Assembly (NCBI GenBank): GCA_944325865.1
Contig: CALVBS010000005.1
Coordinates: 1 to 64,000 of the forward strand
Source: Candidatus Gastranaerophilales bacterium
GTDB taxonomy: Bacteria > Cyanobacteriota > Vampirovibrionia > Gastranaerophilales > Gastranaerophilaceae
Reading direction: 5' to 3'
DNA length: 64,000 bases
The notes under the pieces: model-generated
Databases searched by the model: none
Seen by the model: the letters and a program-made list of their open reading frames with translations, nothing else
Told to the model about the DNA's origin: nothing
In this document: positions 48,451 through 56,579 of the stretch, in pieces
Layout of the letters: each line of letters starts with the position of its first letter
How positions within the stretch are numbered: position 1 is the stretch's first letter
Translations under genes and position numbers: made by a program

Positions 48451-48966
48451 TTAATTTCCCATTCTTAATTTCTGATCTACAAAAGCATTACGCTGGTTAG
48501 CCTGCAGTTTGCCTCTTATAACATGATACACAGCAACGCCAGCTGCAGCTAAAGCAGAAACGACTTTCACCGGAGTACTCATGCTCTTAAGCGGCTGTTT
48601 AAATACCTGTTTTAAAGAACCACCTTTTTTAAATCCTTTAGGTAATGCATTAAACAACCAGCCGGCGGCCAGACAGCCAATACCTGTCATTGTCCCGTAA
48701 ACAGCACCTTTTGCCGTTCCTTTGGTAATTTCTTCTGTCGCCGTGAAGAATTTTGCAACGGATGCAATAGCTTTTTTCAATTTACCCGGCTCTTTTTCAT
48801 GTTTATCGGTAGCACCTTTTTTGTCTGCTTCAAATTGACATTGATCAAGCACACTCATTGCAAGTGTATTATTTTCTGCTTTTGCCTGTTCTCTGGCTTT
48901 TTCAACAACATTATCAGGCAATCTGTATGATGTAAAATTAACATTTGAATTAAGACTTACTGCCAT
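48451..48966 (-). CDS. Hypothetical membrane protein, 171 aa
   Basis: The N-terminal MAVSLNSNVNFTSYRLP has the Asn/Phe lead-in shared by other uncharacterised proteins here. A charged helical region (about 20-75) is followed by two hydrophobic helices: GAVYGTMTGIGCLAAGWLF and VKVVSALAAAGVAVYHVI. The C-terminus is basic. AGGAGTAATCT precedes the ATG. No domain is recognised; a lineage-specific membrane protein is the best description. It lies between accC and mutS. Confidence 0.65.
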   Translation of the reverse strand: MAVSLNSNVNFTSYRLPDNVVEKAREQAKAENNTLAMSVLDQCQFEADKKGATDKHEKEPGKLKKAIASVAKFFTATEEITKGTAKGAVYGTMTGIGCLAAGWLFNALPKGFKKGGSLKQVFKQPLKSMSTPVKVVSALAAAGVAVYHVIRGKLQANQRNAFVDQKLRMGN

Positions 48967-52668: not shown

Positions 52669-52953
52669 ATGAGAATTTCAAATATAAATAGCATTTATAC
52701 TCCCATAAATTTTTATGGAGCCCAAAAAACAAATTTACAAAACAATTCACTCACGAAACCTAATGCACTTAAAACCGGATTAACAACAGCCGGAGCATGG
52801 TTTGGATTTGGCATTGGGCTGGATTATATCTCCAGAAAAATTAAACTATCAAAATCACCTACAAAAAATTCTTTTATGATTAACAGCATTCTTGCAGTTG
52901 GTGCAGGTGTTTATTCTGGTTCCCATTCCCGTGTTTCAAAATCCGATAAGTAA
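52669..52953 (+). CDS. Small hypothetical membrane protein, 94 aa
   Basis: The N-terminal MRISNINSIYTPINFYG has the Asn/Phe-type lead-in. Two weakly hydrophobic helices follow: TGLTTAGAWFGFGIGLDYI and MINSILAVGAGVYSG, with a basic loop between (SRKIKLSKSPTK). TTGACA lies about 40 bp upstream and TATAAT 10 bp before the ATG, but their mutual spacing (13 bp) is poor. No ribosome site is obvious. Its layout is like a miniature of the 171-aa protein at 48451; the function is unknown. Confidence 0.6.
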   Translation: MRISNINSIYTPINFYGAQKTNLQNNSLTKPNALKTGLTTAGAWFGFGIGLDYISRKIKLSKSPTKNSFMINSILAVGAGVYSGSHSRVSKSDK

Positions 52954-52989: not shown

Positions 52990-53505
52990 ATGGAAACACA
53001 TTTTTTAGAGTCACAAAGACTTTATTTCAGAAAAATAAAACCTGATGATTTTGATATTATAGCGTCAATGTTAAAAGATCCACAGGTTATGTATGCATGG
53101 GAATATAATTTTACTGATAAGGATGTAAACGATTGGATTACAATAAATCTTGAACGTTATAAAACTTACGGATTAGGTTATTTTATCATTTCAGATAAAT
53201 TTTTAAAACAGCCTTTAGGACAGGCTGCTCTTATGCCTGATATTATTAACAACAAACTTTATTATGAAATCGGATATATATTAAAAAAGGAATTTTGGGG
53301 AAAAGGTTATGCAACAGAAGCAGCCAAAACTCTCCTTGATTATGCAAAAATAAAATATCCGAATCAGGAATATATTCTTGAAATACGACCGGAAAACCTT
53401 AATTCTGTCAAGGTTGCCAATCGTCTCGGGGCCAAAATTACCGGAGAATTCAATAAACTTGTGCACGGTAAAATTATGAAACATTTGATTTATACATTAG
53501 ACTAA
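52990..53505 (+). CDS. GNAT-family N-acetyltransferase (RimJ/RimL-like)
   Basis: The start is at METHFLESQRLYFRKI, with TATAAT exactly 6 bp before it and no ribosome site (leaderless type). 171 residues. The family pattern is LxLRxIxPxD (LYFRKIKPDDFDIIASML), then YYEIGYILKKEFWGKGYATEAAKTLLDYA, which holds the acetyl-CoA loop GKGYAT. The end is EIRPENLNSVKVANRLG, typical of RimJ/RimL-like enzymes. It probably acetylates an amino group on a protein or small molecule. The stop overlaps the next convergent gene by 4 bp. Confidence 0.88.
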   Translation: METHFLESQRLYFRKIKPDDFDIIASMLKDPQVMYAWEYNFTDKDVNDWITINLERYKTYGLGYFIISDKFLKQPLGQAALMPDIINNKLYYEIGYILKKEFWGKGYATEAAKTLLDYAKIKYPNQEYILEIRPENLNSVKVANRLGAKITGEFNKLVHGKIMKHLIYTLD

Positions 53506-54683
53506 CCTTTTTGTTTTTCTTTATTGTAACGGTATTTGGTAAAAAGATTTGACGAACCCGCAATAAAAAATCCCATTACACCGATTCCGAATAATAAAGG
53601 AATGCCTGCAATCATACACTTTTGTTTCAATAATTTTTTATATACAGTATCAAAATCTCCGCCCTTTTTTATTGCTAATTCTTTCAAATCTTTCAATTTC
53701 GGAACTTCAAATTGTTCATTAATTAAATCACGGCATTTGTTATTTTTGTATAAAAGTTTTCTGAAACCTTTTTCCAAAAGTTCATTACCGCAGATTATAT
53801 AGAATCCCACAAGCGGGAAACGGAACAGAGTTTCTAAGAAATTCTGTTTTCCCCTGTCTTTTGAGGCTCCGAAATAACCTGCACCACCTACCAGTACACA
53901 AGAAGTCAACTGTCCTTTACTCAAAGCCAGCTTTCCGTTATTGTCGGCAAAATCCAGACTGAAATAACGGTTTAGAAAATCCGCTTTTTTCTTATTATTT
54001 CTAAATAGTTTTGTACCGGGAGCAAGAATTAATTCTGAAATATTCTGTAAAGCTTTAGACTTATTCCCTCTCACCGCAAGCAGACTACCAAGAGCAAGAC
54101 ATCCTGCATATATTCCTGAAGCTTTCAGAATGTTTTTCTTTGCACTTTTTTCAACTCTTGCATTAAAATCTTTATCTTCTTTATTATCTTTATTTAAATT
54201 TGCAATGTTTTCAAAATTTCCCTGCTTAAAAACTTTCAAAGTCATAAGATTTTTTATGTAATTAAGGGTAAATTCAATCAAAGGAATTGCAAAAGCTCCG
54301 AGAGCGATTGCAGCCTTAACGGGCAACAAAGCTTTATTTCCTTTTTGTTTTAATAATTCAACAGCCGGAGTTGAGATTTGTTTTTGTAAATCTGCCGGAA
54401 GTCTTTTCGAATAAATATTTTTGAAAACTTTACCTAATAATGCGGGACAATAATAAACAAGAGCAGACTCAGAAAGTTCCAGAAAAGAATTTTCACCTAA
54501 ATCGGCCTTACTTCTGGCAAAAACAGCCTTCGGGATAAGCCCTGTTGCCGTATCCTGAATAAATCTTATGTTTGAAAGCCCTGCACCTCCTTCCTGAACT
54601 GCAACGATTTTACTCATTGCCTTTAAGCCTAAACCTATATTTGAATTTGTAAAAGATACGTTATTTACATTATTAGTTTTCAT
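53502..54683 (-). CDS. Lineage-specific multi-pass membrane protein under a Trp-codon attenuator
   Basis: The start is set at MKTNNVNNVSFTNSN, preceded by TGGAGAAATTACTG, giving 393 residues. About five hydrophobic helices are visible: AAIALGAFAIPLIEFTLNYI, ASGIYAGCLALGSLLAV, LTSCVLVGGAGYFGA, PLVGFYIICGNELL and IAGIPLLFGIGVMGFFIAG. Basic loops separate them. No transporter family is recognised. Upstream on the same strand are a leader peptide with tandem Trp codons and a terminator, so expression should rise when charged tRNA-Trp is scarce. A TATAAT at 54697-54702 after the terminator might give some independent transcription. A role in tryptophan or aromatic supply is inferred only from this regulation. 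Confidence 0.7.
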   Translation of the reverse strand: MKTNNVNNVSFTNSNIGLGLKAMSKIVAVQEGGAGLSNIRFIQDTATGLIPKAVFARSKADLGENSFLELSESALVYYCPALLGKVFKNIYSKRLPADLQKQISTPAVELLKQKGNKALLPVKAAIALGAFAIPLIEFTLNYIKNLMTLKVFKQGNFENIANLNKDNKEDKDFNARVEKSAKKNILKASGIYAGCLALGSLLAVRGNKSKALQNISELILAPGTKLFRNNKKKADFLNRYFSLDFADNNGKLALSKGQLTSCVLVGGAGYFGASKDRGKQNFLETLFRFPLVGFYIICGNELLEKGFRKLLYKNNKCRDLINEQFEVPKLKDLKELAIKKGGDFDTVYKKLLKQKCMIAGIPLLFGIGVMGFFIAGSSNLFTKYRYNKEKQKG

Positions 54684-54712
54684 CAGTAATTTCTCCATTA
54701 TAATCCGACAAC

Positions 54713-54748
54713 AAAAAATGACCTGAACATAAAGAGTACAGGTCATTT
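54713..54748 (-). terminator. Attenuator terminator (3:4 hairpin)
   Basis: On the minus strand AAATGACCTG pairs with CAGGTCATTT around a 13-nt loop and is followed by a T-run (54713-54718). Segment 3 (CCTGTACTC, 54742-54734) can alternatively pair with segment 2 (GAGACAGG, 54798-54791) of the leader ORF. That pairing would abolish this terminator. Confidence 0.85.
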
Positions 54749-54771
54749 AAAATTTGAACAATATTATCGAA

Positions 54772-54846
54772 CTATCGCCAGCTTAAATTTCCTGTCTCTT
54801 TAGACAGGTGCCACCATAATTGAGCGTTTAAATTTAAGTTTGACAT
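54772..54846 (-). CDS. trp-type leader peptide, 24 aa, with tandem Trp codons
   Basis: ATG at 54846 after the ribosome site AAAGGAAATTGG. The peptide starts MSNLNLNAQLWWHLSK and ends SWR-stop, with Trp codons at 54811-54816 (two in a row) and 54778-54780. The hairpin 1:2 (CCTGTCT/AGACAGG, 54808-54791) begins two to three bases after the Trp pair, so a ribosome stalled on Trp would cover segment 1. This is the geometry of classical trp attenuators. The controlled gene is not a known trp gene. Confidence 0.8.
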   Translation of the reverse strand: MSNLNLNAQLWWHLSKETGNLSWR

Positions 54847-54908
54847 AAATTACCAATTTCCTTTGCTTTATCAGCTTAACATAATAAAAAAATTAGTCAA
54901 GTAGTAAA

Positions 54909-55517
54909 TCAATCAAGATAACGTTTTAATTTTGAATAAAAATGGTCTAGAATTTCTGCATTACCCATATCCGGCTGCCACAGAAAGAAATTATCAACAT
55001 ACCTGTCAAACCAGAATGTAATCTCCCTTACACGTTTCGGATCTCTTGTTATATCACCTTCAAACACGACCCAGAAAGGTAAAATATTTTCGTCCTGGAT
55101 ACGTCCGATATCGCGATATGCCTTTAGTAATCCGGGGGTAAATAATTTACACAACCGTTCATGAGCGTTCCCTCTGCCTGCACTTGGCTCTTTACCTTCC
55201 ACCCAGCCGTCCTGTCGTTTTATCTCACCGAATAAAATTTTATGAGTCCTTGTATTCTCTATAGCAAAATCAGGAGAAACACCCCAGTGCACATTTACAT
55301 AATCTATATCAGGATTGTATATTTTACTTTTCAGCTTTGGCGATAATTGAACCTGTGTATATAAACTTTTCAGATGTTTAGGTTTTTCATGAAGTTTATA
55401 ATCAGTTCCTTCAAATGCCTTTTTGAATACCTCATAAAAATTATGTTCCGCTGCTGTCGCAATAGAGCCGCTCACGGTCTGCCAGTTATCACGTTTTTGT
55501 AATTCTTTTTTACCCAT
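54909..55517 (-). CDS. Type II restriction endonuclease, MunI-like (CAATTG expected)
   Basis: 202 residues, the size of R.MunI, and recognisably similar along its length: NWQTVSGSIATAAEHNFYEVF, LHEKPKHLKSLYTQVQL, GVSPDFAIENTRTHKILFGE. The catalytic residues D83, E98 and K100 (PDF ... GEIKRQDGW) fall at the same numbers as in MunI. MunI cuts C/AATTG, so the same specificity is expected but not proven. The start overlaps the controller gene's stop by one base (TAATG). The methyltransferase is divergent. Confidence 0.9.
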   Translation of the reverse strand: MGKKELQKRDNWQTVSGSIATAAEHNFYEVFKKAFEGTDYKLHEKPKHLKSLYTQVQLSPKLKSKIYNPDIDYVNVHWGVSPDFAIENTRTHKILFGEIKRQDGWVEGKEPSAGRGNAHERLCKLFTPGLLKAYRDIGRIQDENILPFWVVFEGDITRDPKRVREITFWFDRYVDNFFLWQPDMGNAEILDHFYSKLKRYLD

Positions 55518-55723
55518 TATAAACCTTTAAATAAGACTTCCAGACTTATTTCTAATCCGTTTGCAATTTTTTCTATGTTATTTATTGAAATATTTCTCTT
55601 ACCACTTTCTACAGATGCAAGATAAGTTCTGTCCATAGAAATCTGCAGTGCAAATTTTTCCTGACTTAGTCCTTTTTTAACACGTAAATCTTTTATCCTT
55701 TTACCAAGCTTTTCCTGTATCAT
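55517..55723 (-). CDS. Controller (C) protein of the restriction-modification system
   Basis: 68 residues, the size of C proteins: LGKRIKDLRVKKGLSQEKFALQISMDRTYLASVESGKRNISINNIEKIANGLEISLEVLF. The HTH with RTYLxxVExGxRNxS is the classic C-protein signature. It would autoregulate and delay endonuclease expression until DNA is methylated. It is translationally coupled to the endonuclease. No clear C-box could be delimited in the 124-bp intergenic region to the methyltransferase. Confidence 0.88.
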   Translation of the reverse strand: MIQEKLGKRIKDLRVKKGLSQEKFALQISMDRTYLASVESGKRNISINNIEKIANGLEISLEVLFKGL

Positions 55724-55847
55724 TCAGAAACCTCGTAAATATATTATCTATATTCTGACAATAAGACAACGGATTATAAGCAACAATTTCTTGACTAAAT
55801 CTGCTTTATTAAATAAAATAAATAAAGATTAGGGTAAAAGTAAGAGT

Positions 55848-56579
55848 ATGATGAATTCAAACACAGAAAACATTTCAGGATATTCAATCTACAATATAGA
55901 GGCAAAAAAACGAACAAAAATTAACCCTCTTGAAGAATTATATCCGGCACTTCCCGATAAAAAATATGACATTATTTATGCAGATCCGCCATGGGATTAT
56001 GGCGGAAAAATGCAGTATGATAAATCTTGCATAAAAAGTGAAAATATCGGTTTTAAAAAAAATATTTTTATAAGTTCAGCAACTTTTAAATATCCGACAT
56101 TGAAATTAAATCAATTAAAACAACTTGATGTAAATTCCATTGCTTCAGATAATTGCCTGCTTTTTATGTGGACAACCGGACCACAGTTTGCCAATTCAAT
56201 AGAACTTGGAAACACCTGGGGATTTGAGTACAAAACAGTTGCATTTGTCTGGGATAAACAGGTTCACAATCCGGGACGATATACTTTATCAGAAACCGAA
56301 TTTTGTCTTGTATTTAAAAAAGGTAAAATTCCAAGCCCGCGTGGTGCAAGAAACATCCGCCAGCTTATATCGGTTCCGCGGGGTAAACACAGCGAAAAAC
56401 CTGAACTTGTTATATCCGGAATTACAAAAATGTTCCCTCAACAAAATAAAATAGAGCTCTTTGCCCGTAAAAATTACAACGGATGGGATAATTGGGGCTT
56501 AGAAATTCCGGATAATAAAGTTAAAATTACTGATAACTCCAATGAAACCAGTATTCAAAAAGTTTTAGAATTAGTCTGA
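55848..56579 (+). CDS. Adenine DNA methyltransferase, MT-A70 type (MunI partner)
   Basis: 243 residues. The catalytic motif is IIYADPPWDYGG (DPPW at 46-49), with CLLFMWTTGPQF, AFVWDKQ and a C-terminal KPELVISGITKMFPQQNKIELFARKNYNGWDNWG. This is the MT-A70 plan used by M.MunI-like enzymes. It would make N6-methyladenine at the partner's site and protect host DNA. Two ATGs in tandem open the ORF (55848 and 55851). It is divergent from the C-R operon. Confidence 0.88.
   Translation: MMNSNTENISGYSIYNIEAKKRTKINPLEELYPALPDKKYDIIYADPPWDYGGKMQYDKSCIKSENIGFKKNIFISSATFKYPTLKLNQLKQLDVNSIASDNCLLFMWTTGPQFANSIELGNTWGFEYKTVAFVWDKQVHNPGRYTLSETEFCLVFKKGKIPSPRGARNIRQLISVPRGKHSEKPELVISGITKMFPQQNKIELFARKNYNGWDNWGLEIPDNKVKITDNSNETSIQKVLELV

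Follow-up and report, generated by a model that had tools for sequence, protein, structure and literature searches.

A putative ribosome-mediated tryptophan attenuator precedes a lineage-specific membrane protein gene in Gastranaerophilales, and paralogues carry methionine-rich leaders

Based on sequence comparison and RNA folding, we conclude that the region around 54683-54846 very probably forms a classical ribosome-mediated attenuator upstream of a membrane protein gene. It lies in a stretch of 64,000 nucleotides from a Candidatus Gastranaerophilales bacterium (contig CALVBS010000005.1), referred to here as the window. A preliminary description of this DNA, made from the sequence alone, had read the locus as a classical Trp-codon attenuator, and this reading is supported by a conserved leader, tandem Trp codons, covarying alternative pairings and a promoter-like sequence upstream. 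Paralogues of the same family are preceded by leaders with methionine codons and, in a single tentative case, with isoleucine codons.

Organization of the leader region

The leader ORF on the minus strand comprises 24 codons, with its ATG at 54846 and a TAG stop codon at 54774-54772. It carries an adjacent pair of Trp codons and a third Trp codon close to its end, exactly as previously described. Likewise, the four RNA segments, their alternative pairings 1:2, 2:3 and 3:4, and the U-run were all recovered at the places given in the preliminary description (Table 1).

Table 1. Positions of the leader elements, the regulated gene and the adjoining cassette in the window.
Feature	Position	Strand	Basis
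Probable leader promoter: TTGACT (54900-54895), 16-nt spacer, extended −10 TGTTAAGCT, TG-T-TAAGCT (TAAGCT at 54878-54873)	54873..54900	minus	inspection
Probable ribosome binding site of the leader ORF, Shine-Dalgarno-like AAAGGAAA	54857..54864	minus	inspection; kept in congeners
Leader peptide ORF MSNLNLNAQLWWHLSKETGNLSWR and stop codon	54772..54846	minus	sequence, relatives
Tandem Trp control codons, Trp11-Trp12	54811..54816	minus	invariant in the 25-sequence alignment A3; 78/78 Trp-type loci
Segment 1, CCTGTCT, partner of segment 2	54802..54808	minus	folding, covariation
Segment 2, GAGACAGG, partner of segment 1 or 3	54791..54798	minus	folding, covariation
Third Trp codon (codon 23)	54778..54780	minus	T37 G38 G39 invariant within the long-leader clade (alignment A3)
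5′ arm of terminator 3:4, AAATGACCTG	54739..54748	minus	folding, covariation
Segment 3 as in antiterminator 2:3, CCTGTACTC	54734..54742	minus	folding, covariation
Segment 4, 3′ arm of the terminator, CAGGTCATTT	54716..54725	minus	folding, covariation
U-run of the intrinsic terminator	54713..54718	minus	T99-T103 invariant (alignment A3)
TATAAT 3′ of the terminator	54697..54702	minus	not conserved as −10
Regulated gene, encoding a basic, helical membrane protein of 393 aa without Trp (lineage-specific family)	53502..54683	minus	sequence, searches, model
MunI-like restriction enzyme	54909-55517		Pfam, E 1e-64
HTH controller-like protein	55517-55723		
MT-A70 methyltransferase, divergent	55848-56579		

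Predicted energies in the window leader are −10.2 kcal/mol for helix 1:2, −13.2 kcal/mol for the 2:3 duplex and −14.2 kcal/mol for helix 3:4. When the RNA was masked as for a ribosome with Trp11 in its A-site, the predicted 2:3 fold remained (−20.0 kcal/mol); with the ribosome placed at the leader stop codon, the terminator remained. A generic terminator scan of the window did not detect this terminator, because its loop measures 13 nt and the limit of the scan is 8 nt. Of the Rfam covariance models run on the window, two tRNAs alone reached the gathering threshold, without Trp_leader or any other Rfam family, and no T-box match was found.

In the mechanism we propose, a promoter upstream of 54846 would drive transcription, and ribosomes would translate the leader ORF of the new RNA immediately. 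With ample Trp-tRNA, the ribosome would pass Trp-Trp and reach the stop codon, helix 3:4 would form and transcription would stop at the U-run. If Trp-tRNA were scarce, the ribosome would stall on Trp11/12 and cover segment 1; segment 2 would then pair with segment 3, no terminator would form and the gene at 53502-54683 would be transcribed. We infer both the stalling and the induction of this gene from sequence. A ribosome stalling at the third Trp codon would hide segment 2 and favour termination.

Conservation of the leader at homologous loci

Homologues were gathered from 99 genomes, from 382 genomes of the class and from 80 named contigs. Upstream DNA was available for 78 Trp-type loci, i.e., the window and 77 of the named contigs. 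An in-frame Trp-Trp leader was present in all 78 (75 starting with ATG, three with TTG), and such leaders are kept down to approx. 55% protein identity. In the same contigs, an ATG-started mini-ORF with Trp-Trp was found upstream of one of 659 other genes and a poly-Met mini-ORF upstream of none (0/659). Against this background, conservation of the leader ORF and its Trp codons, which had been put forward as a check of the attenuator, is evident. The leader peptides differ in length and at both termini, while the tandem Trp codons are constant (e.g., MSNLNLNAQLWW..., MRNNVIKLNRNWWRL, MINNQQKLNNWWQL...). Among named relatives, a Candidatus Scatousia genome is nearest at this locus (93% protein identity).

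The leader DNA is single copy in its own genome, and nucleotide similarity alone finds it in 10 of 58 relatives. An RNA model of the leader matches this locus alone in the genome of the window; weak matches at other loci, with E ~1e-4, were treated as noise. A leader with a single Trp codon occurs in genus g9 (L061 and L062, from genomes G020 and G080, both with trpB), outside the set of 78 loci. The preliminary description had also proposed a search for the same leader upstream of trp genes in related genomes: no such leader was found at the trp operons of G046 and G060 or in the trpB neighbourhoods of G082, G017, G040 and G020. No gene neighbour is conserved in 71 loci, and thus the leader is the sole conserved neighbour of the membrane protein gene; a same-strand gene lies within 60 nt downstream in 17 of 69 loci.

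Covariation of the alternative helices

Covariation, which had been named as a further check, is present in all three helices. In alignment A3, which holds 25 sequences, helices 1:2 and 3:4 have 48 cells changed on both sides compared with 16.8 after shuffling, and helix 2:3 has 11 double-change cells compared with 3.1, numbers which are uncorrected for relatedness and inflated by related sequences. Sliding the register of helices 1:2 and 3:4 cuts the paired cells from 91% to 34-46%. Column 89 in segment 3, where A changes to G, varies together with its partner in 2:3 (T to C) and also with its partner in 3:4 (T to C), which is what maintenance of both helices would produce. Across 70 distinct loci, the 2:3 duplex of each leader has a mean of −11.6 kcal/mol compared with −8.2 kcal/mol when segments are swapped between species, and none of 20,000 permutations was as good, again uncorrected for kinship.

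A clear intrinsic terminator is present in the clade of the window, and in an automatic analysis it was no longer found in some subclades. L150, L153, L154, L161 and their relatives keep the Trp-Trp pair and segments 1 and 2 and have no obvious U-run terminator. In this subclade, a hairpin near the start of the main gene suggests that control may be exerted at translation instead.

Paralogues with methionine and isoleucine leaders

Paralogues with 40-49% identity to the window protein carry poly-Met leaders, e.g., MQNNTMMMQMMMMQNLMSGGRCYACRMC or LKTQLIKNNTMAMMMGMQMMMCMPVLTCRM. An intrinsic terminator is present at each of the 38 Met leaders analysed, with pairing between segment 3 and the stretch after the Met run. 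The mean energy of their 2:3 duplex is −17.1 kcal/mol compared with −10.5 kcal/mol after swapping, with 0 of 20,000 permutations as good (relatedness uncorrected here, too). One gene of the Met clade, L261 in G270, has no recognisable leader. An isoleucine-rich leader, MITSLNIAIISLIIISLL..., precedes one paralogue, L098 (G023:C33), a single and tentative case. The same genome also has a paralogue with a Met leader, and the L098 protein contains 15 Met residues compared with 2-6 in most Met-type proteins. Trp-type and Met-type paralogues are sometimes found in one genome, e.g., in G046, G066 and G082.

Within the class, family groups f9 and f15 also contain far homologues (HMM E-values from 1e-17 to 1e-48), whose leaders lie in more GC-rich DNA. 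Met leaders precede five of them (L102, L105, L227, L233, L242) and Trp leaders four (L220, L222, L223, L224), and no clear leader could be assigned for L221, L240, L241 and L243. L240 and L243, together with L225, all of family f9, each stand second in a tandem pair of family genes and lack a recognisable Trp or Met leader. The most distant homologues of the order (L103, L106, L107, L231-L238) were without an amino acid leader and may represent a different subfamily.

In a tree of 44 proteins labelled as Trp, Met or Ile, at least three changes of control codon are required. The Met-type proteins are paraphyletic, and the Trp-type clade of the order is separate from the Trp-type proteins of f9. 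Given these changes, the control codon has been re-specified while the device was kept. Within one gene family, attenuation has been re-targeted between amino acids, and a methionine form probably exists; the findings also point to an ancient origin of ribosome-mediated attenuation in these non-photosynthetic relatives of cyanobacteria.

The regulated protein

Databases were searched for relatives of the window protein and of every branch of its family. No significant match was found in Pfam, NCBIfam, PHROGs or PDB sequences, in agreement with the earlier statement that the target is a membrane protein of no known family and not a trp gene. Weak candidates were rejected, e.g., mitochondrial pyruvate carrier 2 (E 0.94) and ATP-synt_G (E 0.009, below the cut-off). 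The transporter models of Pfam and NCBIfam gave no match for the window protein, and the weak matches of its relatives include no transporter. In 386 genomes of the phylum, real matches to the family are confined to the class Vampirovibrionia, with two elsewhere at E 3e-4 or weaker; no phage record carries the protein.

An AlphaFold2 model is almost entirely helical (mean pLDDT 87.5, pTM 0.83). A fold search against PDB gave no match with E ≤ 0.001, and the best VIA-align Z of 6.2 lies below a meaningful level for helical bundles. Hydropathy indicates about four strong membrane stretches in the window protein, which is very basic (62 K+R and 31 D+E); Trp-type proteins have a net charge of about +29 and Met-type proteins of about +27. 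A short Asn-rich N-terminal stretch ending in a motif like [VI][NS]F.[GS] was observed in this protein, in those encoded at 52669-52953 and 48451-48966, and in some neighbours at other loci. It may be a lineage-specific signal of these uncharacterised proteins.

Amino acid supply and residue composition

No trpB above the family cut-off was found in the genome of the window or in any genus mate. MetE was also absent from these genomes, as was a full-length MetH, for which a partial match has the size of the pterin-binding domain. Within the host family, 27 genomes without trpB and 7 with it have the Trp-type gene, and 13 of each kind do not. A search for a strict association of this gene with Trp auxotrophy thus gave only a weak one (Fisher p = 0.027, uncorrected for phylogeny). 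Several genomes with trpB have the gene and some without trpB do not, so auxotrophs do not all need it and are not its only carriers. In the same survey, no Met-type paralogue was found in genomes with MetE or a full MetH.

The proteins themselves are biased in composition. No Trp at all is contained in 85 of 93 proteins with a Trp leader, while Trp is present in all 16 proteins with a Met leader; for comparison, 22 of 151 other proteins of 330-460 aa in these contigs lack Trp. At two positions, 11 of 12 aligned Met-type proteins have Trp and nearly all Trp-type proteins have Leu or Phe. This depletion is largely the trait of one clade by descent and fails in several Trp-leader homologues of f9. 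Met-type proteins are, in turn, mildly poorer in Met than Trp-type proteins (1.07% compared with 1.44%, p = 0.016). Cognate bias (Fasani and Savageau, 2014; PMC4209129) is the tendency of proteins required when an amino acid runs short to contain little of it, and the Trp-poor proteins behind Trp leaders fit this idea. The role linked to Trp scarcity which had been suggested for the locus gains support from both the lack of trpB in the genome and the near-absence of Trp in the protein.

Possible function and alternative explanations

Branches of the family share one device with different control codons (Trp, Met and once Ile), and each branch should thus be induced by lack of one particular amino acid. 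Given the attenuator, we lean slightly towards a role of the protein in acquisition, i.e., uptake or salvage, of the control-codon amino acid by auxotrophic bacteria; transport itself we infer. Somewhat short of an even prospect is the broader proposal that Vampirovibrionia possesses a so far unrecognised family of membrane proteins which acquire amino acids and have a new fold. In this proposal, the control codons (Trp, Met, Ile) would reveal the substrate of each protein, and one of the attenuators, the ribosome-mediated methionine form, would lie outside the classical set. As the attenuator names in its codons the amino acid of each paralogue, function is directly testable in laboratory hosts. 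These gut bacteria seem to lack the canonical last steps of Trp and Met synthesis; hence, the family may mark a life off amino acids from the host or community.

With a smaller but still considerable probability, the attenuator is real and the protein is no transporter. It could be a starvation-response factor, e.g., for envelope stress, dormancy, attachment to host or prey, or a membrane-bound regulator, using shortage of a rare amino acid as its signal. Trp and Met are rare and well suited as such signals, the association with auxotrophy is imperfect, and no known transporter fold was matched. Few strong hydrophobic stretches and a high net positive charge are, furthermore, unusual for a permease and speak against acquisition. 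However, amino-acid-specific roles, rather than a single general starvation role, are the better fit for distinct Trp and Met paralogues that each have their own codon and the corresponding residue bias.

It is very improbable that the leader encodes an arrest peptide sensing something else, such as a ribosome-targeting antibiotic, with Trp-Trp as a stalling motif rather than a gauge of Trp-tRNA. Although arrest-peptide attenuators have the same layout of an ORF and alternative hairpins, conservation here is limited to the tandem Trp (or Met) codons, with variable flanks, length and C-terminus, and Met runs replace Trp in paralogues under the same RNA logic.

Comparison with known attenuators

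In the trpL attenuator of enterobacteria, a short leader ORF contains tandem Trp codons, segments 1-4 follow the 1:2/2:3/3:4 logic and the terminator has a U-run. The device in the window has the same leader ORF, tandem Trp codons, segments and U-run as trpL and related trp leaders (Rfam Trp_leader). In contrast to trpL, it precedes a lineage-specific membrane protein gene instead of a trp biosynthesis gene, gives no match at the Rfam gathering level and resides in a genome without trpB, and some relatives apparently have leaderless leader ORFs. In the his, leu, ilv, phe and thr leaders, the identity of the control codons tells which amino acid is sensed as scarce; here, the control codon differs among paralogues of one uncharacterised membrane protein family. 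To our knowledge, no classical attenuator of the ribosome-mediated kind uses methionine control codons, and none turned up in a limited search of the literature.

T-boxes control amino acid uptake genes of auxotrophs, as in Streptococcus suis, where one is reported to couple Trp shortage to the Trp uptake system trpX (PMC9382623). A T-box reads tRNA directly, whereas the window device would do so via a translated leader. The cognate bias of PMC4209129 was described for biosynthetic pathways, in contrast to the attenuator-controlled membrane protein almost without Trp considered here. While the class of mechanism is already known, the target family, the paralogue-specific control codons and the methionine version are new as far as an incomplete literature shows.

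Promoters and start signals

A promoter layout similar to that in Table 1 was found upstream of the leader in congeners, and the promoter-like pair appears conserved by inspection. The preliminary description would have been contradicted by transcription starting only from the TATAAT at 54702-54697, and both the upstream pair and the lack of conservation of this hexamer argue against such a start. We consider it very improbable that the gene is mainly transcribed from there, past the terminator, which would leave the attenuator little weight. The hexamer does exist in the window, but sister species have TATAAA or TATTAT in its place, no good −35 was found for it and it overlaps the stretch just before the start codon; by contrast, the upstream pair and the entire attenuator are conserved. 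The TATAAT is probably part of the translation-start region of the main gene. Finally, an AT-rich intergenic region mimicking an attenuator by chance or composition has practically no probability left, refuted as it is by conservation in 78 loci, covariation and a background of 1/659, and nothing was found in its support.

No Shine-Dalgarno sequence was seen before the leader ATG in 35 of the 75 ATG-started Trp-type loci. In 22 of these 35, exactly 6 nt separate the end of the best −10 hexamer from the ATG, e.g., TTGACG-17-TACTAT-6-ATG; L142-L144, L146 and L148 are examples. With this spacing, the transcription start site would coincide with the ATG and the leader ORF would be leaderless, which suggests leaderless translation of the leader peptide in some relatives, a prediction from sequence. 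In one subclade (L156, L165, L179, L182, L185, L186), a palindrome resembling TATCGATATATCGATA, often within a longer inverted repeat, is located at or just upstream of the start of the leader ORF. In the window, an apparent type II restriction-modification cassette (54909-56579) adjoins the attenuator.
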